From a virus: 34,264 nucleotides of DNA. The notes beneath the pieces were generated by a model. It was not told the DNA's origin, did no database searches, and saw only the letters and a list, made by a program, of their open reading frames with translations. The DNA lies in the IMG/VR virus record IMGVR_UViG_3300048125_000056, positions 1 to 34,264 of that record; one strand, 5' to 3'. Position numbers and translations under genes: made by a program. Below are positions 3,218 to 24,659 of this stretch, piece by piece; within the stretch, counting starts at the first letter, position 1; the number at the start of each line of letters is the position of its first letter.

Positions 3218-3353
3218 ATCTTATTCTTTTTAGTGTTTGCTTTAATTCTTTAATATCGCTTACAGCTTTATATTTACCTTTAGCGATGTCAACATCTTCT
3301 GATATGCCATACCAATCATCTGCATTCAATAATTCTAATATATTTCTTATCAT
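3195..3353 (-). CDS. Small hypothetical protein between tail-tip protein and tape measure (52 aa)
   Basis: This short ORF begins MIRNILELLNADDWYG and ends with a basic helix. Its start overlaps the stop of the 763-aa tail protein as ATGA, and its last 23 bases overlap the tape-measure start. It fills an otherwise empty 130-bp gap and keeps the coupling seen throughout the tail operon, which argues that it is real. Just upstream of the tape measure is where tail assembly chaperones often sit, but there is no sequence evidence for that role. Confidence 0.6.
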   Translation of the reverse strand: MIRNILELLNADDWYGISEDVDIAKGKYKAVSDIKELKQTLKRIRYGTRSSS

Positions 3354-5641
3354 ACTATTTCTCCTTCAAATAGGTTTAATAATTCTAATGTACTTTTACC
3401 AGTTCTTATGTCTGTAGTTATAGAATTTATTCTATAAATATTATCCTGAAATTTAAGCTGATCATTTAATTTATATCTGATTATCACGTTTGGCGGCAGA
3501 TATGCAGTAAATTTAACAACCTTCTTCAAAGGATTAAATACAGATCTAATATAACTACTATAAAACTTTTTAAATAACGAATTATTTGCCAACTGTTGCT
3601 CATCTCCTTGCTCAAAACCAGTTCCTGCAGTGTTTAGCAGACTATTGTAATCCGTTAATTCGAATTCATCTACCTCTGAGTCAAAGTTTATCATGAAATC
3701 AGGTGCTGCCGTTATAACACTTGAACCATCTTTAGTCGGTGGCTCATTAGCATTTGATGGTCTCCAGTAAGTTGAAATAGCATCTTCAGATCCACTAATC
3801 CAATTTATATAGTGATTGGCACTTGATATAGTTTGATATATGCCATAAAACAATAACGGCTTTATATTCTTTGAACTATAATTTCCTGTATCTTCATTAA
3901 AATTACCACCAGCAGCATAACCCCACTGAATTTCTGTTTGAGTTTGATTGTCTCCTAAATCTAATAAATGCTCATACTTTAAATGTGAAAAAGGTAATTG
4001 TACATCATACTTTTTACCAAAATCTGTATATCCTTCAGGAGTATATTCTGCATTACCAAAAATCTTATTATGTGTAACAAAGTGATTCTCCATTAGAATA
4101 GTATCTGTCTCTTCAAACTTAAAATGTATTGTAGTGAAAGGCAGAGTTGCGGAAACTGTATGTTGAGATATGTCAACGTAATCTTGTATGTCTATTGTGC
4201 CGCCTGTAGGATTGTTTACCGCATCAGCATAAAAAGAATCTAACGTCATGACTTTTATTTTACCAAAATCTGTATCAGATTCGTCATCCTCATAAAAAGC
4301 TACAAGGTTAAACATTTTAAATATACCTGATAAAAAGTCAATAATTTTCATGTCAGGCAAATGATCTCTAATAATTATTTTACTTGTAGTAGTATACGTT
4401 CCACCGCTATTTGCTGCTGCAAAAGTTGGTGAATAACCTGTAAATCTAAACAGTGCGACTTTAGCACTGAATTCAGCAGTAAATACAATACCTACATATG
4501 TTTCTACTACAAACCTTACCTTGTAAAGTCTAGGGTCTCTATTATGACAGAAGGTTTTGTTGAATTTTAATGTTTGTGTGCCTATACCTGATATTTCAGC
4601 TAGTGTATCTCCTGACACATCATCTATTGCTTTTATAGTATAATTCTTTTCTGTTTGCCCTACAGATGGTGTTATTTTAAGTTCCATAACAAAATAACCC
4701 TTTTTACAAGCACCTGAGAATATATGTTTTTTCATTTCAAAGTCTACTGTATGGTTGCTAGATACGGTAGGATTGGTTGTGAACTTATCGTCTGTAATAC
4801 TTATAGCAGGTAGATTTGTGATGTCTATAGTTTGTATTTCTTTCCCTTGAAATTCATAATCTATAATATCACCTGATGCAGAGCTTAACCACATAAATAA
4901 ATTAGTAAATGCTTCAGTACCAAAAAAGTCTCTTGTAAATACTATACCATATTTACCTTCTATAGCCTCAATAATATGTGAGCATTTTATAGCAGGCTTT
5001 AAGTCAGTAAAAGCCAAACCTCTTGTTGCATCTGTGCCTACACTAATTAAATTACCTGAATAGTTGCTAGGATCACTTGAGCCTAGAGAAGAGTCAAAAA
5101 ACAATCTTTTGGTCGGTGTAATAAGTGGATATATCACAGAACTATGTACACCTATGCCTGTGTTAAAACCACCCTTGACTGTAGCAGCATCATAAGTATG
5201 GTCATACAGTGTTAGTTGGTTAGATTTTCCTGCCTCTGTTAAGGCATCTAATTTATCTTCTTTTATTATATCTTTTAACTGTACTGTATTGCCAAAAAAG
5301 GTGATATTATAACTTGATGGTCTATTGTGATTCATGGTAACTGAATTGACCTGTATAAATCCTCTTCTAAATAAAAGAAAGTTTATGAATATTTTTGCAG
5401 CTTTTTTAGTTCTAGTATCAAATCCACCTTGAGTTATGTGTGGCGAATAAAAATGCCCAAATGTTTTATTGTTATCGTCTGATGCAGGAACAGTAAATGA
5501 TTGACTAAAATCTGTAAATACTTTACCAACATCTTTTAAATCTTGCAGGGTAGATGTTATTTCTATAGTTTCATCTCCGTACAAGTCTATTTTTCTGTCT
5601 TTATCGCTTGTATCTTGTATGTATAATTGTACTTCTGTCAT
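3350..5641 (-). CDS. Large tail-tip/baseplate-like structural protein (763 aa)
   Basis: The N-terminus (MTEVQLYIQDTSDKDRKIDL, then FTDFSQSFTVPASDDNNKTF) is a pattern I associate with large uncharacterised tail proteins of Bacteroidota phages. The rest is beta-rich with few charged helices. It lies immediately upstream of the tape measure in the transcription order, after two other beta-rich tail proteins. Distal tail, hub or baseplate protein is a positional inference. It starts on the last base of the upstream stop (TAATG) and ends in an ATGA overlap with the 52-aa gene. No catalytic motif is visible. Confidence 0.65.
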   Translation of the reverse strand: MTEVQLYIQDTSDKDRKIDLYGDETIEITSTLQDLKDVGKVFTDFSQSFTVPASDDNNKTFGHFYSPHITQGGFDTRTKKAAKIFINFLLFRRGFIQVNSVTMNHNRPSSYNITFFGNTVQLKDIIKEDKLDALTEAGKSNQLTLYDHTYDAATVKGGFNTGIGVHSSVIYPLITPTKRLFFDSSLGSSDPSNYSGNLISVGTDATRGLAFTDLKPAIKCSHIIEAIEGKYGIVFTRDFFGTEAFTNLFMWLSSASGDIIDYEFQGKEIQTIDITNLPAISITDDKFTTNPTVSSNHTVDFEMKKHIFSGACKKGYFVMELKITPSVGQTEKNYTIKAIDDVSGDTLAEISGIGTQTLKFNKTFCHNRDPRLYKVRFVVETYVGIVFTAEFSAKVALFRFTGYSPTFAAANSGGTYTTTSKIIIRDHLPDMKIIDFLSGIFKMFNLVAFYEDDESDTDFGKIKVMTLDSFYADAVNNPTGGTIDIQDYVDISQHTVSATLPFTTIHFKFEETDTILMENHFVTHNKIFGNAEYTPEGYTDFGKKYDVQLPFSHLKYEHLLDLGDNQTQTEIQWGYAAGGNFNEDTGNYSSKNIKPLLFYGIYQTISSANHYINWISGSEDAISTYWRPSNANEPPTKDGSSVITAAPDFMINFDSEVDEFELTDYNSLLNTAGTGFEQGDEQQLANNSLFKKFYSSYIRSVFNPLKKVVKFTAYLPPNVIIRYKLNDQLKFQDNIYRINSITTDIRTGKSTLELLNLFEGEIV

Positions 5642-6765
5642 TACCTAATACTTTGTACAAATTCAGAATCTGCTTCAAATTCTAAAGCATAGTTGATAAG
5701 CTTGTCATCTTTTCTAGTTAAAAAGTTTACATTATCAGATACAACTTTAACAGGCACTGCTAACGCAGAGGTTTGATCAGATGGACTTAATCTATTTGTA
5801 TCATGTATGTAAACATATTCTGAAACTAATATTTCCTTAATAACTTGATTGTGACTTGGGTGTATAAAGCCAGTATTCATTGTAAATCTTTCTCTGCCTT
5901 GATTTTCAATATATCTTGTTTGGTGTAGAGATGGATTGTAGGTTGTGGGGTTTGTTTCTATTTGTATAATTGATTTTTTATAATCTGTTCTATTTGTGTT
6001 AATACCATCTCTTTTAAGTGCAAAGAAATACATGCTTTGTATTACACCAAATTTATTTAGAAATGACAATTTATGTGGCAAGTTTTTACATTCGTCAATA
6101 CACTGGATATTTATAGTTCTAGTTGTGCCATCAGCTCTAGTGATTGTGACTTTATTTGCATTCACTGGTATAGAACTTGTATTTACAGATTTGTTGGAAC
6201 TAGAACTAAGAGATGCTGTCTTATCAATTTTAATGTCAACAGGAGGATTTAATCTAACTTCTTGTGCTATTGTAAAAGGAACTGCACTACCAGTAGTATT
6301 TAGTTTTAATTGTGTTGTATCTTGAAAATACACTACCTTAGTTACACCATCAGTTCCTTGCTGATAGAATGGTACAATAATTTCTGAACCACAAAGATTG
6401 TTGATTACAGAATTAGATATCATAAAATCTTTTGATAGCTCAGGATTTATGTTGTCATTTAACTGACCGTAACCTCTAAATGCTATAGCTTTTTGTTTTA
6501 TCTTTTCACTATCACTATCTGTGGTATCATCATCATATGTTCTTGTAATTTCCCATTCTACATTTTTTGTTTGTTTTATATTTCTGTAATTACCATCAAA
6601 CTCAACTTCAACATAATCTTTTACTAATTCTGCTATCTCAAAAACTATAGTAGTCTGATAAACAAGTTTGGTTTTAGTTATAGTATAGGTAGGTGTACTA
6701 GGTCTTTTCAGTATATCCCCACTCCATATATATAACTTTAATTCTGCTGAAGATAATTTAGCCAT
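5641..6765 (-). CDS. Tail structural protein (374 aa), function unassigned
   Basis: The product begins MAKLSSAELKLYIWSGDILK and is rich in Thr, Asn, Ile and Val, with predicted beta structure. Near residue 215 it has a short Cys pair (QCIDEC). It sits between a 484-aa and a 763-aa beta-rich protein in one coupled series (2 bp gap upstream, 1-base TAATG overlap downstream). That makes a tail-tip or baseplate component likely. I recognise the general type from Bacteroidota siphophages but cannot name a family. Confidence 0.55.
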   Translation of the reverse strand: MAKLSSAELKLYIWSGDILKRPSTPTYTITKTKLVYQTTIVFEIAELVKDYVEVEFDGNYRNIKQTKNVEWEITRTYDDDTTDSDSEKIKQKAIAFRGYGQLNDNINPELSKDFMISNSVINNLCGSEIIVPFYQQGTDGVTKVVYFQDTTQLKLNTTGSAVPFTIAQEVRLNPPVDIKIDKTASLSSSSNKSVNTSSIPVNANKVTITRADGTTRTINIQCIDECKNLPHKLSFLNKFGVIQSMYFFALKRDGINTNRTDYKKSIIQIETNPTTYNPSLHQTRYIENQGRERFTMNTGFIHPSHNQVIKEILVSEYVYIHDTNRLSPSDQTSALAVPVKVVSDNVNFLTRKDDKLINYALEFEADSEFVQSIR

Positions 6766-8222: not shown

Positions 8223-8741
8223 CTATACAAATTTTACAGTTTTATCATTCATATTAAACCCTGCCTTAATTAATATTTCATTTATATTTAATTCTACATC
8301 TTGAACTATAGGCGCAATAACTTTTAGATTTTTCATATCTTGTTTTATAGCTTGTTGTATAAATGGTAATTTATTTACACCTTTTATCTTAATCTTAGAT
8401 GCTATAGTTTCAGCTATTTTTTTTACTGCTGGTAGCTCAGGAGACTGATTTGCATAAGCTATTGGTTTCTTAACTAACCATTTAGCTATATCATGTACTT
8501 GTACTGTCTTTTTTCTACCCTTTTCTATATCCATTAAATATTTGTTACCAACAATATCTATGTTTAATGCATTTAACTTTTCTTTAGTTATCATGTTTTT
8601 CAATGACTTCTTTGCTGCACCAGTATATGTGATTTTAGATCTATCCTGTCTTTCTCTATCTAATTCAATCTTCAATAGTCTTATTAGTCTTTTGGCATAA
8701 TTTTTCATATATGCTTTTGTATTTTTTATTTTTATTGACAT
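8223..8741 (-). CDS. Neck/tail-completion protein (172 aa)
   Basis: A basic, helical protein that starts MSIKIKNTKAYMKNYAKRLI. It contains a stretch (KYLMDIEKGRKKTVQVHDIA, then WLVKKP) resembling head-closure or HK97 gp10-like tail-completion proteins in phages of this group. It overlaps the preceding gene by 10 bp and directly precedes the tail proteins. That fits a role in joining the head to the tail or terminating the tail tube. The family assignment rests on pattern and position only. Confidence 0.6.
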   Translation of the reverse strand: MSIKIKNTKAYMKNYAKRLIRLLKIELDRERQDRSKITYTGAAKKSLKNMITKEKLNALNIDIVGNKYLMDIEKGRKKTVQVHDIAKWLVKKPIAYANQSPELPAVKKIAETIASKIKIKGVNKLPFIQQAIKQDMKNLKVIAPIVQDVELNINEILIKAGFNMNDKTVKFV

Positions 8742-9223
8742 TCTGTTCCGTCTCTATTTATTAGTGCCATGTCATTGTTAGGCATACGTAAGGATAAATT
8801 CATACTCCATCCTGATACCTTATTTTCAAACTTATCTTCAAATAATTCTGCCATAGGATCAGAATTAAGGTGAACTAAATCATCGTACAACTGTCCTCTT
8901 CTTACAGCAGATTGTAAACCATTTACTACAGTAAGTAATGTATTGTGTATATCGTGTTTGTTATCTAAACCTAAATGTGGTTTTGCTTTACTTTGCTTGT
9001 CATCTTTATCTTCATCTACTAAATCCATTACTACAACATTCAAAGCTAAATTCATAACATGTTCTTCAAACGTCATTGACTGAATTGTTATATGTGCCAA
9101 TGGGTAAATACTTTGTTTTGATAAATCAACCTCTAATAAATCACCAAAGGTAACGGTGTTAATAGAAGCACTACCACTTAGGTAAGTATGTAATTTATCA
9201 ATAATGTCGTAATAACTTTTCAT
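8732..9223 (-). CDS. Tail terminator/neck protein (163 aa)
   Basis: The layout resembles tail terminator or neck proteins that are usually 130-170 residues long. An N-terminal helix (MKSYYDIIDKLHTYLSG) is followed by beta strands (YPLAHITIQSMTFEEHVMNL). A central acidic/Lys segment (DLVDEDKDDKQSKAK) comes before a second helical half. The start codon forms an ATGA overlap with the end of the minus-one extension of the upstream gene, and the gene overlaps the downstream neck gene by 10 bp. Confidence 0.6.
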   Translation of the reverse strand: MKSYYDIIDKLHTYLSGSASINTVTFGDLLEVDLSKQSIYPLAHITIQSMTFEEHVMNLALNVVVMDLVDEDKDDKQSKAKPHLGLDNKHDIHNTLLTVVNGLQSAVRRGQLYDDLVHLNSDPMAELFEDKFENKVSGWSMNLSLRMPNNDMALINRDGTECQ

Positions 9224-9239: not shown

Positions 9240-9986
9240 TTATTTTTGCTTCAAGATCGTTTTTTTGTTTTTCGAAGGATAAGAAGGTAAGGCATTGGTG
9301 AATTTGTAATTTTGTAACTTCGTCAAACTTTCTGACATCTCCTCTAGCCAAAGCATATATTGATTGATACCAACCCCATTTTTGTCCAAAGCCACCTTCA
9401 AGTCCAGTGTTGTATCCGTCTTCAGTGTTTTTCGTATATAAGTCAGGGTAGCCTTCGACAATTCCATCCCTAAACGATAAAAAAAAACCACTGAACCCAT
9501 AACAATATTAAGTGGCATTTCTTTCATGAGATGACTTATTTCATCAGATGGTGAATATTCTGCAATCGTATATCTTTCTTTTTTCTTGAAGTTAACTGGT
9601 CTGTAAAGCACAGCCATCGCTTTATGCATATTTTGCCAATCACCAAGAAAGTTTTCTACATCTACATACTCACCTAAACTCATGTCATCTAATTTTGGTA
9701 TAAAACCCATTTCAACATCCAATAACTTAAATCTTTTTACTAAATCATATTTTTCATTAAACGCATGATTTAAAATAGATAATAATTTAGATACATCTTT
9801 AAATGGTATCTTATCAATATATTTTTCATTTATATTGCAAACGTGCTGAACTAACTTTCTGTTTATATATTCGGCATCTTTTTCTTGATCTTTATCTTTT
9901 ATATCTTTTAGATAGTCTTGATATTGACCTAAAGTAACTTCTTTAAGTGAACTTGGTACAACAATCTTTACTTTCTCTTTTATCAT
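9240..9986 (-). CDS. Tail assembly chaperone-like protein (248 aa), probable -1 frameshift near its end
   Basis: A helical, charged cytosolic-type protein (MIKEKVKIVVPSSLKEVTLG; later GFIPKLDDMSLGEYVDVENF) of a kind found at the head of tail operons in Bacteroidota phages. Chaperone is an inference from its position first in the tail operon. As read it stops at 9240. Seven T's on the plus strand (9260-9266) encode two Lys codons. A -1 shift there gives 13 more residues (NDLEAKIMKQKFK) and a stop at 9220 that overlaps the next gene as ATGA, the commonest junction in this genome. The sequence therefore holds either a programmed frameshift or a homopolymer length error. Confidence 0.65.
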   Translation of the reverse strand: MIKEKVKIVVPSSLKEVTLGQYQDYLKDIKDKDQEKDAEYINRKLVQHVCNINEKYIDKIPFKDVSKLLSILNHAFNEKYDLVKRFKLLDVEMGFIPKLDDMSLGEYVDVENFLGDWQNMHKAMAVLYRPVNFKKKERYTIAEYSPSDEISHLMKEMPLNIVMGSVVFFYRLGMELSKATLTYIRKTLKTDTTLDLKVALDKNGVGINQYMLWLEEMSESLTKLQNYKFTNALPSYPSKNKKTILKQK

Positions 9987-10194
9987 ATTATAATAACTTT
10001 GTTTCTATTTTGTGTATCTCACTAACTCAAATGACTCAGTGGCATATCAATAAATAATTATATATATTATATACATTATTATATTTTATATAAATACTTA
10101 TACTAATACATACTTATGTATAAAATAAAAAATATACTTACTTATGTATACATATAATTATATATATATATGCCATTAGGACAGTTGGAATATT
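9987..10194. other. AT-rich intergenic region with repeated TACTTA/TATATA words
   Basis: About 210 bp with no credible gene. It is almost pure A/T, with a (TA)n tract at 10151-10170 and two copies of tacttatgtata (about 10110 and 10140), plus further TACTTA words nearby. It lies upstream of the whole tail operon, so it probably holds that operon's promoter. I could not find a convincing TTTG-N19-TAnnTTTG pair in it. A replication-origin or operator role is possible. Confidence 0.5.
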
Positions 10195-10779
10195 CTAATT
10201 ATTCGTTGTGTAGTAATGACAATACAATTCATGGATCTTATCGTAAATTACTTTTGCTGTATACGTTTGGGGTGATCTGATTATCGTTCCATTGTTTTCT
10301 ATTTCTATGTACATTTCTTTTGTACCTGTTGGCACTGGATACATTCTTATGCCATTTTCTATACACCAACTAAAACAGATATGTGGTTCTATTTCGTCTT
10401 TCATTTTATCTATATTAGAATTTAACTTAATACTTATCTCTTCTTGCACTTTAAATAAATCCTCTATCTTCTTAGCCTCATTTATAATACTTTTTACTTT
10501 TTCTGAACCACCTTTAAACCATTCTGTTTTACTATCAAAAGACTTTACACCCATACAATCTCTATACTTCGTTGCTAAGTTTAACTTATTACCTACTTTT
10601 ATTATAGATTCAACTTGATTAGAGAATCTATGTTCCTTAACATAAGTTTCATTTACAGCTAATTCCATATTTTTTGTTACTTGAGTATGCCTCTTCTTTG
10701 GGTTATCTGTTATGCCAACTTTCCAAAACTCTTTGGCATCTTTATCTCTAGTTGTGTATATGTATAAATATCTTTTCAC
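10195..10779 (-). CDS. T5orf172/MUG113-like GIY-YIG family protein (194 aa)
   Basis: Residues 3-33 (RYLYIYT, then FWKVGITDNPKKRHTQV) match the T5orf172/MUG113 branch of the GIY-YIG superfamily, where YLYI replaces GIY and KVGIT replaces YIG. A conserved Arg follows (KKR). The C-terminal half is Lys/Glu-rich and helical. The family includes phage endonucleases and DNA-binding proteins. I do not see the usual catalytic Glu placed clearly, so nuclease activity is uncertain. The start is GTG at 10779, only a few bases after a -7-like TATATTTG, suggesting a nearly leaderless mRNA. Long noncoding spacers flank it on both sides, as expected for a free-standing homing-type or accessory gene. Confidence 0.6.
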   Translation of the reverse strand: MKRYLYIYTTRDKDAKEFWKVGITDNPKKRHTQVTKNMELAVNETYVKEHRFSNQVESIIKVGNKLNLATKYRDCMGVKSFDSKTEWFKGGSEKVKSIINEAKKIEDLFKVQEEISIKLNSNIDKMKDEIEPHICFSWCIENGIRMYPVPTGTKEMYIEIENNGTIIRSPQTYTAKVIYDKIHELYCHYYTTNN

Positions 10780-10783
10780 AAAG

Positions 10784-10803
10784 CAAATATAAGTAAGTTA
10801 CTT
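10784..10803 (-). promoter_or_regulatory. Candidate promoter -7 element with overlapping dyad operator
   Basis: On the minus strand TATATTTG (10784-10791) matches the Bacteroidota -7 consensus TAnnTTTG just upstream of the GTG start at 10779. Immediately behind it, 10791-10803 is a perfect dyad, AAGTAA-G-TTACTT, in the spacer where a repressor would block polymerase. No clear -33 TTTG is seen. Instead a TTGTCAGTTGGA motif lies at 10802-10813 in the opposite orientation. Confidence 0.4.
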
Positions 10804-11065
10804 GTCAGTTGGAGAATGTTATCTGTGTGGAGTGTAGGTTATTTATAGAAAAATTGTTTTTTATCCGTCAGAGTCTACCTAATATATACTATTCATGCAT
10901 AATAAAAAGATTAGCTGTAAGGAACGCAAATATTGGGGTGGGGTTAGGGTGTCAAAACCTATTTTAATTGCATTAGGCGTTCTAAGAAGCGTAAAATTCG
11001 CCCTATTTGATATAAAATTAATATGCCTTTTATTGATATTCAACCAATTACAAAAATAAACCCAT

Positions 11066-11088
11066 AAAAAAACCCTCTAAAAAGAGGG
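11066..11088 (-). terminator. Rho-independent terminator after GP88 gene
   Basis: Arms CCCTCT (11073-11078) and AGAGGG (11083-11088) form a 6-bp GC-rich stem with a 4-nt loop. On the minus strand this is followed by seven U's (A-tract 11066-11072). It lies about 40 bp downstream of the GP88-family stop and ends that transcription unit. Confidence 0.85.
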
Positions 11089-11125
11089 CTATATAATTAA
11101 TTTAATTTATTTAATTATTAATTTA

Positions 11126-11734
11126 TTAATGATAAACTAAACCAACTTTATTGGTCTTGTTGTGCCATTTAGTCGCATATAAATCGTAATCACTAGCATT
11201 TATATATCTAGCTTTTTTAAGTTCCTCTAAGCTCTCAAAAATAGATGCGTGCCTTTCGTTAGCTTTGTCTAGCTGATTATCTAATTTAGATCCCTCACTA
11301 AATATTATATCAAAATTATTAGGTAATTCAATAGACCTAAAAAAATTGTGTGATTTAGTGTAAGCATAAAACTTGACATCTTTACAGGCTCTAGCAATCT
11401 CTAACCATTTATTAAGATACTTAGGGCTGTAAAAGTCGCCACTATCATGAATTCGTATATAAGTTGCTTTTTTCTTTTTTATTTCAGCAATCATAAGAGG
11501 GACAAAAGAAATTGTTTTAGTTATTTCTAATCTTTTTTCCATTAGTTGCCCAATCTTAGGAAATCTTGTATAATTTCCTTTTTGTGCGTAACAATACTTT
11601 ACGCAATCACTAGCAAAAGGGCAAACTGTTTTACCCGTCACACTTTTATAAGCGGGTATTGAGAAATTAAAGACCCTCTCACCGAAATGAGAGGAAGTCT
11701 TTTTTAATTTACTATTTTGAGTTAATAAGTTCAT
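11126..11734 (-). CDS. GP88-family (gene product 88-like) protein (202 aa)
   Basis: The Cys cluster CPFASDCVKYCYA (C38, C44, C48) and the IRIHDSGDFYSPKYL block (residues 93-107) match the phage gene product 88 family first seen in mycobacteriophages. The spacing is C-x5-C-x3-C-Y, not the classical radical-SAM C-x3-C-x2-C. The family's function is unknown, and metal or iron-sulfur binding is an inference from the three Cys. It is the last gene of a cassette that runs from a promoter at 12522-12552 to a terminator at 11066-11088. Two short conserved-looking genes precede it with 2-3 bp gaps, so the three probably act together. Confidence 0.75.
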   Translation of the reverse strand: MNLLTQNSKLKKTSSHFGERVFNFSIPAYKSVTGKTVCPFASDCVKYCYAQKGNYTRFPKIGQLMEKRLEITKTISFVPLMIAEIKKKKATYIRIHDSGDFYSPKYLNKWLEIARACKDVKFYAYTKSHNFFRSIELPNNFDIIFSEGSKLDNQLDKANERHASIFESLEELKKARYINASDYDLYATKWHNKTNKVGLVYH

Positions 11735-11737
11735 AAT

Positions 11738-11992
11738 TTAATATATTATTTTTTCTTTATTTGTGTTAAATCCGATAAGACCATTTAATTTAATTTCAGC
11801 CTCTTTTTTACTCAATTTATCATAATGAACATAATAATTAAGTATTTGCTCAATGTATAAATTAAAGGGATGAAATCCACCTATTTTTTTATCCATTAAA
11901 TCGGACAAAAAGTGACCCTGATTAGGATTAAGTAGATATTGAATACGCAAGTATTCATTTACTATTAATTTTCGTGTTTTTGTATTATACAT
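11738..11992 (-). CDS. Hypothetical protein in GP88 cassette (84 aa)
   Basis: The product starts MYNTKTRKLIVNEYLRIQYL and is Tyr/Asn/Lys-rich and mostly helical, with no signal peptide or membrane segment. I do not recognise a family. It sits 2 bp after the 106-aa gene and 3 bp before the GP88-family gene, so it is translated in the same unit and may be a partner of one of them. Confidence 0.6.
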   Translation of the reverse strand: MYNTKTRKLIVNEYLRIQYLLNPNQGHFLSDLMDKKIGGFHPFNLYIEQILNYYVHYDKLSKKEAEIKLNGLIGFNTNKEKIIY

Positions 11993-11994
11993 AA

Positions 11995-12315
11995 TTATAT
12001 AATATTTAAAGTTTTATTATTTCCTGTCTCAACGTCAAAGAATTTAATATAGAATAAAGTATTTGAGTTGATTTTTCTATAATTTTTTATAGTCATGTCA
12101 TAAACTTTAAAGTGCCCATGATCTTTTGGGTCATGTTTTGCACCTGTACCCTTTACGCCAATTTTTACACCTCCTCTGTATTTTCCAAGTCTGGGCGAAC
12201 CATTTTTTTTAATGTGTCCAGCTCCGAAAATAAGACCGCTTTTAATGGCTTTTTCTACAAGTCTAAACTTATATGAATTAGATAATTTACTTTTTGTTTC
12301 TATATTTAGTTTCAT
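11995..12315 (-). CDS. Conserved-type hypothetical protein in GP88 cassette (106 aa)
   Basis: A short protein with a distinctive central block (FGAGHIKKNGSPRLGKYRGG, GVKGTGAKHDPKDHGHFKVY) followed by DMTIKNYRKI. I recall similar GTGH-/HDPK-/VYDM-containing phage and plasmid proteins of unknown function, but I cannot name a family. The Lys/Gly/His-rich loop suggests nucleic-acid or ligand binding. It precedes the 84-aa gene by 2 bp. The start is ATG at 12315, in an AT-rich leader like those of the neighbouring small genes. Confidence 0.6.
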   Translation of the reverse strand: MKLNIETKSKLSNSYKFRLVEKAIKSGLIFGAGHIKKNGSPRLGKYRGGVKIGVKGTGAKHDPKDHGHFKVYDMTIKNYRKINSNTLFYIKFFDVETGNNKTLNII

Positions 12316-12342
12316 AGTTATTTGTATTTAGTTAGTAATTAG

Positions 12343-12480
12343 TTAAAATATTTCTTTTATATCCTTAATAAATACTTTGATAAAATCTCTTATTACTATA
12401 TAGGTTAAGTATATAAATAAAGGTGATATTATATAAAGTACGTTAAAAAGTGTATTTATTTCGTTTAATGTAAGTTTCAT
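12343..12480 (-). CDS. Small membrane peptide (45 aa), first ORF of GP88 cassette
   Basis: The ORF starts MKLTLNEINTLFNVLYIISP and continues with a hydrophobic stretch (LYIISPLFIYLTYIVI), then a Lys-rich tail, so it is a likely single-pass membrane peptide. ATG at 12480 lies about 40 bp downstream of the perfect promoter at 12522-12552. It follows the same A/T-rich leader (ending in AAAAATTATG) as other small genes in this region. Because it is short and A/T-rich, a chance ORF is possible. Confidence 0.5.
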   Translation of the reverse strand: MKLTLNEINTLFNVLYIISPLFIYLTYIVIRDFIKVFIKDIKEIF

Positions 12481-12521
12481 AATTTTTGTATTTAGTTAAT
12501 ATTAATTTTAATTAGTTAAGA

Positions 12522-12552
12522 CAAACATATAACATATTTTCCATATGACAAA
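12522..12552 (-). promoter_or_regulatory. Bacteroidota-type promoter of GP88 cassette
   Basis: On the minus strand, TTTG (12549-12552), 19 bp, TATGTTTG (12522-12529). Both elements match the Bacteroidota consensus exactly (-33 TTTG, -7 TAnnTTTG). The bases after TTTG (TCATATGGAAAAT) match those in the promoters at 13680 and 23541, hinting at a shared regulator site. Transcription runs toward the 45-aa gene and the GP88 cassette. Confidence 0.75.
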
Positions 12553-12606
12553 ATAAAAGCCAATAAAATATTAATTAGGCTAAAAAAGTACTTTTGGAAT
12601 TATGGC

Positions 12607-12642
12607 AAAAAAAAAACCCCCTATTGAATTCACAAAGGGGGG
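12607..12642 (-). terminator. Rho-independent terminator of small-gene cassette
   Basis: Five C's (12617-12621) pair with the six-G run at 12637-12642 around a 15-nt loop. On the minus strand this is followed by ten U's (A-tract 12607-12616). It ends the cassette that starts at the promoter 13680-13710. The loop contains one copy of the 13-bp repeat described at 12622-12689. Confidence 0.8.
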
Positions 12643-12689
12643 TATTAAATTCATAGGGGTATTAAATTCACACCCCTATTAAATTCACA
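12622..12689. repeat. Repeat cluster A: four copies of a 13-bp word, some in hairpins
   Basis: Copies of tattRaattcaYa lie at 12622-12634, 12643-12655, 12660-12672 and 12677-12689, with starts 21, 17 and 17 bp apart. The spacers are runs of G or C that pair across a copy. On the minus strand ATAGGGGT and ACCCCTAT flank the third copy as a perfect 8-bp inverted repeat. A second cluster of the same word is at 13848-13920. The function is unknown; iteron, operator or RNA element are all possible. Confidence 0.85.
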
Positions 12690-12690
12690 T

Positions 12691-12816
12691 TCATGTTTTC
12701 ACTTTGAATATGTTTCCGTTCATTTCTTCGACCACCTTTCTAACTTTTGAATCTTTCTTAAGTTTGCTCAGATCCTTAGCTTTGAATCGTAGCCATATAA
12801 ATTTATCTTGTTTCAT
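12691..12816 (-). CDS. Small basic hypothetical protein (41 aa)
   Basis: The ORF begins MKQDKFIWLRFKAKDLSKLK and is rich in Lys. Its ATG at 12816 overlaps the stop of the 62-aa gene as ATGA, which is the reason to believe it. It is the last gene before repeat cluster A and the terminator at 12607. No family is recognised. Confidence 0.5.
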   Translation of the reverse strand: MKQDKFIWLRFKAKDLSKLKKDSKVRKVVEEMNGNIFKVKT

Positions 12817-13001
12817 AGATTATGTTTTATAAATTCCTTGTGTATATTATCATAAGTTTTTTTTGCATCTTTATCAGACTTCTCAGTAAGCATAGATGCT
12901 ACTAAGATTGATATTATTTGTTTTCTTTGATATTCAGGCAGGTAACAACATTGAGTTGCTAACTTATCAAAGTGCCATTCAGCGTATTTATTTTTTTTCA
13001 T
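12813..13001 (-). CDS. Small hypothetical protein (62 aa)
   Basis: The product reads MKKNKYAEWHFDKLATQCCY at its start and is helical and soluble-looking, with a Cys-Cys pair near residue 19. It belongs to a series of five short genes (13651 to 12691) driven by the promoter at 13680-13710. It follows the zinc-ribbon gene by 15 bp and overlaps the 41-aa gene by 4 bp. I do not recognise a family. Such series in phages usually encode early host-takeover proteins (inference). Confidence 0.55.
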   Translation of the reverse strand: MKKNKYAEWHFDKLATQCCYLPEYQRKQIISILVASMLTEKSDKDAKKTYDNIHKEFIKHNL

Positions 13002-13016
13002 AGTTATTTATTTTAA

Positions 13017-13214
13017 TTAGTAATATTTATTATCTCTTTCATCGTGAAAGCCAGTTCCATCTTTACATTTTGAACATCGACCAGTCACGTAATCATCATC
13101 TATTTGTACTTCACCTATTGGGTAAGCACCACAACAATCTGATAAGAAAGTTATATCATCGTACTTGTAACGTTCATCTAGCCAGTTAGGCTCACTATCT
13201 ACCATACTATTCAT
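13017..13214 (-). CDS. Small zinc-ribbon-like protein (65 aa)
   Basis: A Cys-Cys-Gly-Ala motif (SDCCGAYPIGEV, C27-C28) and a later GRCSKCKDGTGF (near residues 45-56) form a typical small zinc ribbon of the 'SxCCGAP...C-x2-C' type, common in phage and bacterial short proteins. The N-terminus is acidic. It probably binds one zinc ion and may touch nucleic acid or a host protein. It is 2 bp after the 72-aa gene in the small-gene cassette. Confidence 0.65.
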   Translation of the reverse strand: MNSMVDSEPNWLDERYKYDDITFLSDCCGAYPIGEVQIDDDYVTGRCSKCKDGTGFHDERDNKYY

Positions 13215-13216
13215 AG

Positions 13217-13435
13217 TTATTGTTTTTTTAGCTCATCTGTTTGTAAAAAATTTAATTCATCCTGTATTGTAGAAATACGTTCTAGAATTAAATCTTGCAA
13301 ATTTGTCCTTGCATCCATTGGCATATCCCTTTCTGGTATCAGTTTGGCAAACGCAACTAGTGTGCTTAATTTAGTTTTTATAACCTCATACGAGGTCTCC
13401 CTTTTAAATTGATGTAATGTAGTATTTGTTTTCAT
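13217..13435 (-). CDS. Small helical hypothetical protein (72 aa)
   Basis: The product starts MKTNTTLHQFKRETSYEVIK and looks almost wholly helical, with a coiled-coil-like end (LILERISTIQDELNFLQ). No family is recognised. Its leader is one of two identical 30-bp sequences (13430-13459) that overlap the start codon, suggesting a shared translation signal with the 66-aa gene upstream. Confidence 0.55.
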   Translation of the reverse strand: MKTNTTLHQFKRETSYEVIKTKLSTLVAFAKLIPERDMPMDARTNLQDLILERISTIQDELNFLQTDELKKQ

Positions 13436-13459
13436 AATTTTATTATTTAATTAGTTAAT
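13430..13459 (-). repeat. 30-bp leader repeat, copy 1
   Basis: Identical to 13646-13675 over 30 bp. On the minus strand it reads attaactaattaaataata followed by aaattatgaa, and it includes the ATG of the 72-aa gene. It has no Shine-Dalgarno sequence, as is normal in Bacteroidota, where A-rich leaders help initiation. Related but imperfect leaders precede 13214, 13001, 12480 and 12315. Confidence 0.8.
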
Positions 13460-13651
13460 TCTAAAAATTATACTCTCTACTATATTGTTGGTTTTAGAGT
13501 CAAATAGATCTTCTTCTACATATCTCATCTGATGAACATCAGAATCATCACAGAATCTAAAGTTAACATCTACATCATCTAAAGTTCTATTGTTGTATTT
13601 TAATTCTTCTTCTATTCTAGATAAGAATTTTTTTATTGTACTTGCTTTCAT
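13451..13651 (-). CDS. Small acidic hypothetical protein (66 aa), first gene of cassette
   Basis: The product starts MKASTIKKFLSRIEEELKYN and continues with an acidic middle (DDVDVNFRFCDDSDVHQM). It is the first gene after the promoter 13680-13710, with about 29 bp of leader, so its mRNA probably starts near 13676-13678. It is soluble-looking and no family is recognised. Its start lies in the second copy of the 30-bp leader repeat. Confidence 0.55.
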   Translation of the reverse strand: MKASTIKKFLSRIEEELKYNNRTLDDVDVNFRFCDDSDVHQMRYVEEDLFDSKTNNIVESIIFRIN

Positions 13652-13675
13652 AATTTTATTATTTAATTAGTTAAT
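13646..13675 (-). repeat. 30-bp leader repeat, copy 2
   Basis: Identical to 13430-13459 and includes the ATG of the 66-aa gene at 13651. The two genes share only short similarity past the start, so the repeat is a leader and not a gene duplication. It lies directly downstream of the promoter 13680-13710. Confidence 0.8.
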
Positions 13676-13679
13676 AGTA

Positions 13680-13710
13680 CAAATGTAATAATTATTTTCC
13701 AACTGACAAA
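13680..13710 (-). promoter_or_regulatory. Bacteroidota-type promoter of small-gene cassette
   Basis: On the minus strand, TTTG (13707-13710), 19 bp, TACATTTG (13680-13687). Both match the consensus exactly. The spacer begins TCAGTTGGAAAAT, shared almost letter for letter with the promoter at 12522 (TCATATGGAAAAT) and in part with 23541. It sits between the packaging-gene terminator (13750) and the first small gene (13651). Confidence 0.8.
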
Positions 13711-13749
13711 TATTATTTAAATTATTTTTTATATATATTTGCAGAAATT

Positions 13750-13780
13750 AAAAAACCCTCTGAAAGTATCAAAGGGTTTT
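13750..13780 (-). terminator. Rho-independent terminator after packaging genes
   Basis: Arms around ACCCTC (13755-13760) and AGGGTTTT (13773-13780) pair. On the minus strand the stem is AACCCT/AGGGTT, followed by a U-tract from the A-run before 13756. It lies downstream of the TerL-nuclease operon and upstream of the promoter at 13680, so it separates the two units. Confidence 0.75.
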
Positions 13781-13847
13781 CGTTAACTAATTATAATAAC
13801 CAAATCAAATTATGAAATAACATAATTGAAGTAGATGCTAATATAGG

Positions 13848-13920
13848 TATTAAATTCATATATACAAAATTTTGCCTATTGAATTCATAGGTTATTAGAT
13901 TCATAGCTATTAAATTCATA
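13848..13920. repeat. Repeat cluster B: four copies of the 13-bp word
   Basis: Copies of tattRRattcata lie at 13848-13860, 13877-13889, 13893-13905 and 13908-13920. The last three start 16 and 15 bp apart, and the first is 29 bp from the second. The word is the same as in cluster A at 12622-12689. Copies 3 and 4 encode the C-terminus of the nuclease (YEFNSYESNNL), and the others are noncoding. A degenerate match (tattaaattcaag) lies in the nuclease gene at 14080-14092. Confidence 0.85.
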
Positions 13921-14397
13921 AGCATCTTTTGATGCATCAGGGTAATGAATCTGTTGTATTTCTAAGTGTTTGATATCATCGTAAGATACTTTTACTATCT
14001 CATCTTTTCTACCCCATTTAGATCTAGTATATATTTTCCAATAGTCTTTTTTATTGGTAGTGGTTTCCGTAACACCACCTATTAAATTCAAGAGATCAAT
14101 TCTATTGTACATACAAAATGATTCTAATTCATGTACATAAAAACATATGTAGTCTGCTTTACCTTTTAGCCATCCATCTTTACCTTGTACGTTAGTAAGC
14201 TCTAACCAAATTGTATCTAGATGCCTACCACCTTTTACATCTACTCCTTTATCATTTACATAGAAGTCAATGTGTTTGTGCATGTTTTCATGCCTGTTAG
14301 ATTTTGTTACAGAATTAGATCTGTCTTTCATGCAAGTAGCAAAATGTTTCTCAACAAAGTCACCATACTTGAAATCATAATATTGTTTACGCATCAT
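13885..14397 (-). CDS. PD-(D/E)XK-like nuclease next to terminase (170 aa)
   Basis: The core HIDFYVNDKGVDVKGGR (D44, then D53-V-K55) followed by WLELTN (E66) resembles the PD-(D/E)XK nuclease fold, with D53-x-K55 as the catalytic pair. It directly follows TerL (6 bp gap), so it may trim or resolve DNA during packaging or replication. A restriction-like or Holliday-junction role is equally possible. Its C-terminus is encoded by two copies of the 13-bp repeat, which suggests the repeats have grown into the gene end or that the DNA element overlaps it. Confidence 0.55.
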   Translation of the reverse strand: MMRKQYYDFKYGDFVEKHFATCMKDRSNSVTKSNRHENMHKHIDFYVNDKGVDVKGGRHLDTIWLELTNVQGKDGWLKGKADYICFYVHELESFCMYNRIDLLNLIGGVTETTTNKKDYWKIYTRSKWGRKDEIVKVSYDDIKHLEIQQIHYPDASKDAYEFNSYESNNL

Positions 14398-14402
14398 ATA
14401 AA

Positions 14403-15614
14403 CTATCTTATAACGTAAGTACCTTTTGGATTGCTACGCAGAAGTAAATACTCAACAGCATACCTCATCGCATCCACACCATGATTGTAAGCATCTCTCG
14501 GCTTGACACCCCTGATATCCCAAACATAGTTGTTGAATTCTTTGACAAGGTTTTCTCCATCTAGATTGATGTTGTAATCTTGCATCAAAGCAATCCCTGT
14601 TACAATACTGCCCTTCTTCTTCACAGTGGCAGTGCAATTCAGCCCTCTTGAATTCAGCTCTGCAATTAGACGAGGTTCGCTGGAGTCTACAACAATAAGT
14701 CTCTTTCCTGCATATCTTAAACATAAGTCATATATATTTGAAGTAACTAACCCTTTTCTATAAAAGTGTTCCTTAACCCAAATTATTTTTCTAGCTTTAT
14801 CTACTGCAACTTCTGTAAGCACAGATTCATCTCTAGCGAATCCAATATCCAATCCAAAACAACTTATTGGTATCTCCCTATTGAATTGTCCAATCTGCCA
14901 ATCTTCAAATACAACTCCCTCAGCTTTCTGTAACCAACCACCCATGATTTGGTGTTCGTATTTCTGTGGCCTTCTTACTTTCATTTCTTCTACCTGCTTT
15001 ACAAAAGACTCTGATAAATGTTCTTGGTTATCTAAGTAAGTAGTATGAATATAACTTACACCATTTTTAGATCCATTGAATCCGTCAGCAATACCTCTGT
15101 TCTGAAAGAATCTCTGATATACCCAATGTTCTTTTGTAGTGGGATTAAGTATAAGTAAAACTCTGTTAGCAGATACTTTAGATCTAATACTATAATCTAT
15201 CTTATCAAAGTTATCTTCTTCCATAAGCTCTTCTGCTTCATCAAGTACAAAAGTATTTACTCCACTAATAGATTTAAGTTTAGCAGTCTGATCACCACTT
15301 GCAGTTTTTATGCCACTAAAATATATAGAAGAACCAGTAACCTTATTTTTTATTTCATACTTGGTTACCTCAAAGTTTTCTATTACTCCCATTAAATTAA
15401 GCTTTTCTACAAACTCAGGAATAATCGACATAGAAGCCGAAGTCATGGTGTACCTAGTAAATAGTATCCTGTTATCTTTTTCGTACGTTAGAAGAGCTAA
15501 AAATACCGTTACTGCGAATGATTTACCTGATCCTCTACCACCAGTAATTACTACGTATCTATCCTTTGTCTGAAACAGACTTTGATACTTTGGGTTTAGA
15601 TTCAGCTTTTGCAT
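14403..15614 (-). CDS. terL: Terminase large subunit (403 aa)
   Basis: This motor-nuclease pumps DNA into procapsids. The Walker A motif is GGRGSGKS (residues 25-32), Walker B TFVLDEAEEL (121-130), and a coupling-type motif LILNPTTKEHWV follows near 154-165. The nuclease domain has three acidic residues in the expected places: D256 (CFGLDIGFARDES), D310 (LIVVDSSEP) and D381 (YNHGVDAMRY). This is the Terminase_3/PBSX-like architecture at near-normal length. The start overlaps a 49-aa ORF, and TerS lies just upstream. Confidence 0.92.
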   Translation of the reverse strand: MQKLNLNPKYQSLFQTKDRYVVITGGRGSGKSFAVTVFLALLTYEKDNRILFTRYTMTSASMSIIPEFVEKLNLMGVIENFEVTKYEIKNKVTGSSIYFSGIKTASGDQTAKLKSISGVNTFVLDEAEELMEEDNFDKIDYSIRSKVSANRVLLILNPTTKEHWVYQRFFQNRGIADGFNGSKNGVSYIHTTYLDNQEHLSESFVKQVEEMKVRRPQKYEHQIMGGWLQKAEGVVFEDWQIGQFNREIPISCFGLDIGFARDESVLTEVAVDKARKIIWVKEHFYRKGLVTSNIYDLCLRYAGKRLIVVDSSEPRLIAELNSRGLNCTATVKKKGSIVTGIALMQDYNINLDGENLVKEFNNYVWDIRGVKPRDAYNHGVDAMRYAVEYLLLRSNPKGTYVIR

Positions 15615-23540: not shown

Positions 23541-23570
23541 CAAATATATAAAAAAATTCCAAATGACAAA
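23541..23570 (-). promoter_or_regulatory. Bacteroidota-type promoter of replication operon
   Basis: On the minus strand, TTTG (23567-23570), 18 bp, TATATTTG (23541-23548). The spacer starts TCATTTGGAA, shared with the promoters at 12522 and 13680. It lies between the late-gene terminator (23578) and the ERF start at 23536, so it drives early genes. The 18-bp gap is 1 bp shorter than in the other two promoters. Confidence 0.75.
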
Positions 23571-24281: not shown

Positions 24282-24659
24282 CTAGTACAGCCAGAGAGCA
24301 TCCACTTTGTTTGGGTCGTTGTCAACGTGAATAAAGGATTTTGCGACTCCAAGTCTAGTGAATCCTGCCTTAACAAGGCTTCTAACAATAATTTCTCTAT
24401 CATTTGAATTTGTGCAGGATATGTCTGCAGCGAATCCATACAAATGTGAACTTCCTCTATTTGAGGAAGATTTAGGCACTCCTCCCACCTTAAGATTGTG
24501 AGTCTCGCTTCTATATCCTGAGTTAATTTTAAAGGATATTCCTGCGATTTCTCTTGCTTTGTCCAGCATCCGTAAGAAATCATGATCCATATTAATACCA
24601 CTATTCTCTTGGTCAGGACTGTCAAATTCAGATAATTCAAAATATTTAAGTTTAATCAT
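24282..24659 (-). CDS. Endolysin, M15-family peptidase (125 aa)
   Basis: This cleaves peptide bonds in peptidoglycan at the end of infection. The zinc-peptidase core is complete: INSGYRSETHN (46-55), GSSHLYGFAADIS (H72, D79) and SFIHVDND (H111, D113), with an LWLY end. This is the Peptidase_M15_3 layout at its usual length, with no signal peptide. That agrees with release by the holin. The start overlaps the 39-aa membrane peptide as ATGA. A same-strand ORF in another frame (24242-24640) is a shadow, not a second gene. Confidence 0.9.
   Translation of the reverse strand: MIKLKYFELSEFDSPDQENSGINMDHDFLRMLDKAREIAGISFKINSGYRSETHNLKVGGVPKSSSNRGSSHLYGFAADISCTNSNDREIIVRSLVKAGFTRLGVAKSFIHVDNDPNKVDALWLY

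Follow-up and report, generated by a model that had tools for sequence, protein, structure and literature searches.

A moron-like cargo unit in a flavobacteriophage-type siphovirus carries a candidate Fe-S enzyme of the GP88 family beside a small WYL_2 protein

For proteins of the GP88 family (PF17338; PHROG 1392, 'Gene product 88') neither Pfam nor PHROGs describes a function, and the first-pass annotation of this locus had likewise called the family one of no known function. One of them is encoded in a short run of genes near the terminase gene of the viral record analysed here, the whole of which (34,264 bases) we call the window. This raises the question of whether these genes form a unit of their own, which of them belong together, and what chemistry the GP88 protein may perform.

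The cargo region and the boundaries of the GP88 unit

The main genes of the window, namely those for the portal, Erf annealing protein, ParB-like protein, primase/helicase, exonuclease, terminase large subunit (TerL) and tape measure, all lie on the minus strand. A Peptidase M15 family protein, a probable endolysin, is encoded on the same strand at 24282-24659. The virus is a marine flavobacterial-type phage, a siphovirus of flavobacteriophage type, and the isolated phage whose TerL matches best is Nonlabens phage P12024L (Inhavirus; seawater), at 52.6% identity. Both phages share the order TerL, gp40, gp42, gp43, gp45 and gp46, the homologs of the last four lying in the window at 8732-9223, 8223-8741, 5641-6765 and 3350-5641. 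They differ between the first two of these genes: in P12024L TerL (gp39) abuts gp40 directly, whereas here the distance from TerL to the gp40 homolog is 4,416 bp, the whole of this 4.4-kb region being absent from P12024L. In sister phages the corresponding distance is 3.5-5.5 kb. Judged from gene order, the region is cargo that was either inserted here or lost in P12024L, the direction of change not being polarised.

The cargo region holds at least two tandem promoter-terminator units, an arrangement absent from the first-pass annotation, and the GP88 unit is one of them (Table 1). It has the anatomy of a moron, with additional DNA separating two genes that adjoin each other in a related phage, and with a predicted promoter and terminator of its own. 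The promoter-genes-terminator insert of moron type that had been proposed is in this anatomical sense borne out, and we regard the cargo unit as virtually certain to be real. All the genes previously named exist at predicted open reading frames (ORFs) on the minus strand, encoding in order proteins of 45, 106, 84 and 202 aa separated by gaps of 27, 2 and 3 nt.

The predicted promoter follows the Bacteroidetes-type pattern TTTG-N19-TATGTTTG. By itself this bare pattern is not convincing, because it occurs six times in the window against 1.75 expected, a mild enrichment. The extended element TTTGTCANNTGGAA, for which shuffling predicts 0.00 occurrences, is present exactly three times, in each case on the minus strand and inside or overlapping an operon promoter (12539-12552, 13697-13710 and 23557-23570), the last copy adjoining the Erf recombination gene. 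Together with a TAnnTTTG box, the element also precedes the same 45-aa ORF in the sister phages L001, L021, L022 and L023. The unit can thus be credited with a predicted promoter conserved in sister phages, but not with a private one, the element being shared with two other operons. It is possibly the operator of a phage regulator. A reversed near-copy lies on the plus strand at 10801-10814, in a non-coding stretch beyond the GP88 terminator, and in L005, L009 and L010 the equivalent of the element is an inverted repeat, TTTGTC..GTGG-AAAA-CCCAC..GACAAA.

The terminator of the unit was confirmed, its hairpin being placed slightly differently from the 11066-11088 of the first-pass annotation. 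Terminator-like sites number nine in 4 kb, against 0.9 expected. When hairpins were folded one by one, hairpin and T-run proved to be kept in eight phages, with stems that had changed and re-paired through compensatory changes. Another terminator precedes the promoter, so the GP88 unit is bounded on both sides.

Several other features of the region were noted. The non-coding stretch beyond the GP88 terminator (10780-11070; about 250-300 nt) is conserved in the corresponding position of sister phages, contains the motifs GGGCGAATTTTACGCC, TACTCTGAC and TCTCCAACTGCCA, has no Rfam match, and may be a packaging site, a region of late promoters or a small RNA. Across the window, Rfam and ARAGORN found no known RNA and no tRNA. 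A 194-aa protein encoded on the minus strand at 10195-10779 combines an N-terminal T5orf172 (GIY-YIG-type) domain with a C-terminal domain of 65-80 aa (phrog_5945), and the latter occurs alone in the sister phages L002, L005, L010, L015 and L023. The neighbouring cargo unit encodes, at 13017-13214 on the minus strand, a zinc-ribbon-like protein of 65 aa with CC and CSKC pairs, which has no Pfam match and is duplicated in L022 (6724-6915 and 6918-7073).

Table 1 Features of the cargo region in the window
Feature	Position	Strand	Remarks
Whole cargo region	9987..14402	-	TerL (14403-15614) on one side, 248-aa homolog of P12024L gp40 (9240-9986) on the other
Intrinsic terminator of the GP88 unit (predicted)	11071..11090	-	dG -11.6 kcal/mol, z -3.5; structure kept in 8 phages
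GP88 protein, 202 aa	11126..11734	-	C38-x5-C44-x3-C48-Y-A, R94-x-HDSGD, FYAYTK, R161-H162; (beta-alpha) half-barrel in the model
84-aa protein	11738..11992	-	clade-restricted GP88 neighbour, no known family; dN/dS 0.10
106-aa protein	11995..12315	-	diverged WYL_2/DUF2693-type Sm-like SH3 barrel (phrog_2267), by profile, homology and model
45-aa peptide	12343..12480	-	single-helix membrane type; conserved in sister phages; dN/dS 0.37
Promoter of the GP88 unit (predicted)	12522..12552	-	TTTGTCATATGGAAAATATGTTATATGTTTG; -33 TTTG, -7 TATGTTTG; common element TTTGTCANNTGGAA
Terminator of the preceding unit (predicted)	12617..12639	-	just ahead of the GP88-unit promoter
Neighbouring cargo unit	12691..13651	-	ORFs of 66, 72, 65, 62 and 41 aa
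Promoter of the neighbouring unit (predicted)	13680..13710	-	carries common element TTTGTCANNTGGAA
Terminator ahead of the neighbouring unit (predicted)	13751..13781	-	dG -16.9, z -6.0

Genes that accompany GP88

The 106-aa protein is a diverged member of the WYL_2 superfamily by its homology to proteins that pass the family cut-off. It scores 16.9 bits against PF10902, under the cut-off of 26.7, and matches phrog_2267 at 4e-6; its relative in L007, similar to it at 1e-15 (36%), passes PF10902 with 33.6 bits. Residues F30, K36, R42, R47, D73 and R80 are conserved, and a dN/dS of 0.12-0.18 indicates purifying selection. The model of the protein (pLDDT 72) matches Rof/YaeO, the WYL domains of BrxR, PafBC and CapW-ssDNA, and Hfq, with Z 5.5-7.1. 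Like WYL_2/DUF2693 (PF10902) and the WYL domains of BrxR, CapW, PafBC and DriD, which are the top structural matches, it is a predicted Sm-like SH3 barrel, and it shares with them the conserved basic residues K36, R42, R47 and R80. Makarova et al. (PMC4012209) assign DUF2693 to the WYL superfamily and report four conserved basic residues. Unlike the WYL proteins BrxR, CapW, PafBC and DriD, the WYL_2 type found here stands alone at about 90-106 aa and has no HTH. The WYL domains of PafBC bind ssDNA (PMC11804915), and by analogy a nucleic acid or nucleotide is the natural guess for the ligand of the 106-aa protein.

The first-pass annotation had also suggested that the three soluble proteins of the unit act together. 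The gene set does co-occur elsewhere: all four genes are kept in L001 and L021, and in L022 the 106-aa gene is accompanied by a GP88 of 56% identity and by a 98-aa protein that is related to the 84-aa one but diverged from it. The set is not obligate, because L023 has the 106- and 84-aa genes with other small genes in the place of GP88, and the 84-aa gene, restricted to this phage clade, is absent from most GP88 neighbourhoods. An obligate three-gene system is thereby ruled out; what recurs is GP88 with the 106-aa protein.

Related GP88 loci are not independent, and they were clustered by identity into groups before WYL_2 neighbours were counted. A WYL_2-like protein is the commonest neighbour family of GP88, present in 29 of 58 groups (85% clustering; 161 loci) against 15 of 58 for TerL. 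At 90, 80 and 70% identity it lies within 1 kb of GP88 in 38 of 78, 18 of 44 and 9 of 23 groups, which is 25-, 13- and 10-fold higher than in the more distant flanks (binomial p of 8e-22, 1e-9 and 3e-5); at 60% clustering, where 8 groups are left, the association is marginal (p 0.03). The WYL_2 gene may stand upstream or downstream of GP88, at most 60 nt upstream in 19 loci, and the two often share a strand and lie 1-11 nt from each other; no fusion between them was seen. WYL_2 loci were also gathered by single-protein scans, and where their downstream sequence was long enough, GP88 often followed at a distance of 1-2 kb. The same WYL_2 type is found upstream of a second GP88 subfamily (L227:1785-2520, L229:4397-5147, L232:4849-5593, L235:4849-5593 and L237:3486-4209). 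At distant GP88 loci, from mycobacteriophage, Streptomyces, cyanophage, an archaeal virus and Amycolatopsis, no WYL_2 gene was found within the flanks examined.

From this observed co-localisation we infer cooperation, and consider GP88 and WYL_2 reasonably likely to be functionally paired. If the region after TerL were instead a hypervariable slot in which both are common cargo with independent functions, this would accommodate its many unrelated small ORFs, its differing content even between near-identical phages, the presence of WYL_2 without GP88 in L023 and that of GP88 without WYL_2 in about half of the groups; we hold it to be unlikely, since within the flanks themselves WYL_2 clusters close to GP88, and since the pairing recurs in either order, with two GP88 subfamilies, in phages of 34 kb and of about 50-60 kb, and among different gene neighbours.

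Two further small families adjoin GP88. An uncharacterised family of 53-62 aa with the motif [FWD]C-x-x-P-x-[KR]T does so in 13 of 58 groups (for example L005:3452-3613, L010:3778-3939 and L063:1382-1570), with a conserved Cys-x-x-Pro and Thr (KFCRYPKKTKLYK / RWCKYPERTK). The other, a THSYGFH family of 84-98 aa, is found in 15 of 58 groups.

The GP88 protein, its relatives and its predicted fold

The membership of the 202-aa protein in the GP88 family and its C-x5-C-x3-C motif, both of which had been claimed, hold. The protein matches PF17338 over profile positions 2-200 of 230 (E 6e-39; 134.6 bits against a cut-off of 24.4), essentially at full length, with its three Cys and the family's (R/x)-HDSGD. 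It is under purifying selection, with a dN/dS of 0.06. Across 43 sequences, down to 35% identity, the residues C38, C44, C48, A50, R94, HDSGD (96-100), Y102, W110, F122, Y123, Y125 and R161 are invariant. All full-length copies among the 161 loci have three Cys ending in C-[YF]-A and an HDSGD-type motif, and all have the C-x5-C-x3-C spacing except L030, which has an insertion between the first two Cys. Distant members carry the three Cys at other spacings, L112-L114 with an extra C-terminal Cys cluster. The flavobacteriophage branch is compact (202 aa), with C-x5-C-x3-C and a WYL_2 neighbour, whereas in its mycobacteriophage counterpart the spacing is C-x6-C-x3-C, a Cys cluster follows at the C terminus, and the flanks examined contain no WYL_2. 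One pattern scan of viral contigs recovered more than 500 GP88 relatives, from viruses of bacteria and archaea.

In a literature search covering a minority of subscription journals, we found no paper on the function of GP88, on its relation to DUF5131 or on its pairing with WYL_2, and none on 'GP88 family', Gp37/Gp68 or DUF5131 in connection with radical SAM. The toxic gp88 of mycobacteriophage overexpression studies (PMC11797047, PMC9339283) was set aside: the name there is a gene number in Waterfoul and Hammy, and the passages in question make no mention of PF17338.

Profile comparison indicates that GP88 is very probably homologous to DUF5131 (Gp37/Gp68, PF07505). In hhalign the two aligned with a probability of 83-85% and a score of 42.8-43.6, against best scores of 23.5 and 19.9 among permuted controls (60 each), and the Cys motif, the SD/GD motif (SGD/MSD) and FYAYTK with FQILTK all fall in line. 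A Pfam scan with E up to 1 gave no direct PF07505 match for GP88. Like GP88, DUF5131 has a Cys motif ending in CYA, SD after strand 2 and LTKR after strand 3; it differs in its C-x6-C-x2-C spacing and its length of about 240 aa or more. The second GP88 subfamily (CPKASKGCAxxCL, FRLNGTSDLDF; PF17338 E 5e-34) looks intermediate between the two, its NGTSDLDF being closer to the NSMSDLF of DUF5131. Searches of the PDB returned nothing credible for the GP88 sequence and profile and no relative for a DUF5131 sequence, and NCBIfam gave no match.

The AlphaFold2 model of GP88 (pLDDT 87.9, pTM 0.87; least confident in the Cys loop, at pLDDT about 60) was compared with known structures. Radical-SAM enzymes make up 18 of the 21 best-ranked entries in VIA-align, among them viperin, QueE, EpeE, queuine lyase, LipA, TYW1, NifB and BlsE, with Z 5.2-6.3 and an rmsd of about 3.7-5 A. 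These are what the model best resembles, but the resemblance is weak, Z 6 being a level at which the similarity may reflect a common arrangement. Foldseek gave no PDB match at E<0.001; among viral models it retrieved GP88 and Gp37/Gp68-like proteins, and radical-SAM proteins ranked far below them. Direct profile similarity to Radical_SAM (PF04055) was about at control level, with a score of 18.5 against 15.6 for the best permuted control in one comparison and of 15.3 against 15.5 with the widest alignment.

The canonical cluster motif CxxxCxxC (or CxxxCx-aromatic-C) is absent from GP88, which has C-x5-C-x3-C instead; some radical-SAM enzymes have non-canonical Cys spacings. In the model, polar motifs lie at the strand ends, with HDSGD after strand 2, YTK after strand 3 and S at strand 4. 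Small radical-SAM enzymes such as QueE, viperin and queuine lyase resemble GP88 in the predicted half-barrel, in three Cys after strand 1 and in a core of about 200 aa, and differ from it in their CxxxCxxC motif and in the lack of a significant sequence match. We therefore describe GP88 as radical-SAM-like in modelled fold and motif order without assigning it as a member. It probably binds an Fe-S cluster, and whether its chemistry would be of radical-SAM type is, in our judgement, evenly balanced.

A different role, in which GP88 is a nucleic-acid-binding or regulatory factor whose three Cys, together with a His or Asp, hold zinc or else a cluster that is structural or senses redox state, would fit the unusual Cys spacing, the lack of a sequence match to Radical_SAM and the low confidence of the Cys loop. 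It is made unlikely by the TIM-type fold of the model, by conserved polar motifs placed at strand ends as is typical of an active site, and by the dominance of radical-SAM enzymes among the structural matches.

A proposed role for the unit

We tentatively read the unit as moron-like cargo with GP88 and WYL_2 as its core, GP88 being a minimal Fe-S, radical-SAM-like enzyme and WYL_2 its partner of nucleic-acid type. To judge from conservation, a promoter of the phage regulon would drive the membrane peptide, WYL_2, the 84-aa protein and GP88, and the unit's own terminator would end the transcript. The core would be a two-gene module, to which the 45- and 84-aa genes are probably accessory. GP88 would most likely belong to the DUF5131 (Gp37/Gp68) superfamily as a minimal TIM-half-barrel metalloenzyme of about 200 aa, with C38, C44 and C48 probably holding a [4Fe-4S] cluster and radical-SAM-like chemistry, suggested by fold and motif order, at the HDSGD site. 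The WYL_2 protein, probably an Sm-like binder of nucleic acid or nucleotides, may recognise, present, deliver or sense the substrate. GP88 would then modify a nucleotide, tRNA/RNA or DNA during infection, as part of takeover or counter-defence; a substrate of nucleic-acid type is possible, though open to considerable doubt.

GP88, DUF5131 and WYL_2 are each already known as uncharacterised or partly characterised families. That GP88 and WYL_2 form an undescribed phage two-protein system, in which a radical-SAM-like enzyme with a new C-x5-C-x3-C cluster motif carries out nucleic-acid or nucleotide modification guided or gated by WYL_2, within one viral superfamily with DUF5131, is a speculative proposal and rather doubtful as a whole. 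Were it true, the phage repertoire of takeover and counter-defence would gain a small enzyme family as well as a partnered system. The link to DUF5131, the class of chemistry and the recurrent partner together turn a family of undescribed function into one with testable predictions, namely an Fe-S cluster, SAM cleavage and partner binding.

No tyrosine integrase was found in the window, although the record may be incomplete, and takeover or counter-defence cargo is for this reason favoured over lysogenic conversion. Expression of the unit from a prophage, altering the lysogen, appears less likely on the same ground. The suggestion that the unit is a moron acting on the host or on superinfecting phages accordingly found no support, PADLOC-DB having no match for any of its proteins. 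Its fuller version, in which the three soluble proteins make up a system directed against other phages (superinfection exclusion) or toxic to the host, is improbable: the moron-like anatomy, the small membrane peptide leading the unit and the frequency of WYL domains in defence loci (PMC4012209) speak for it, and set against them, besides the missing integrase and PADLOC match, are a gene set that is not obligate (L022, L023, L005) and a promoter element common to the recombination operon.

The chromosome of Amycolatopsis sp. 2-2 carries two GP88 copies in similar surroundings (L103:6001-6573 and L104:6001-6573), with a long ORF that looks ParB-like by eye lying a few kb away, an arrangement that suggests spread of GP88 by an integrated mobile element.
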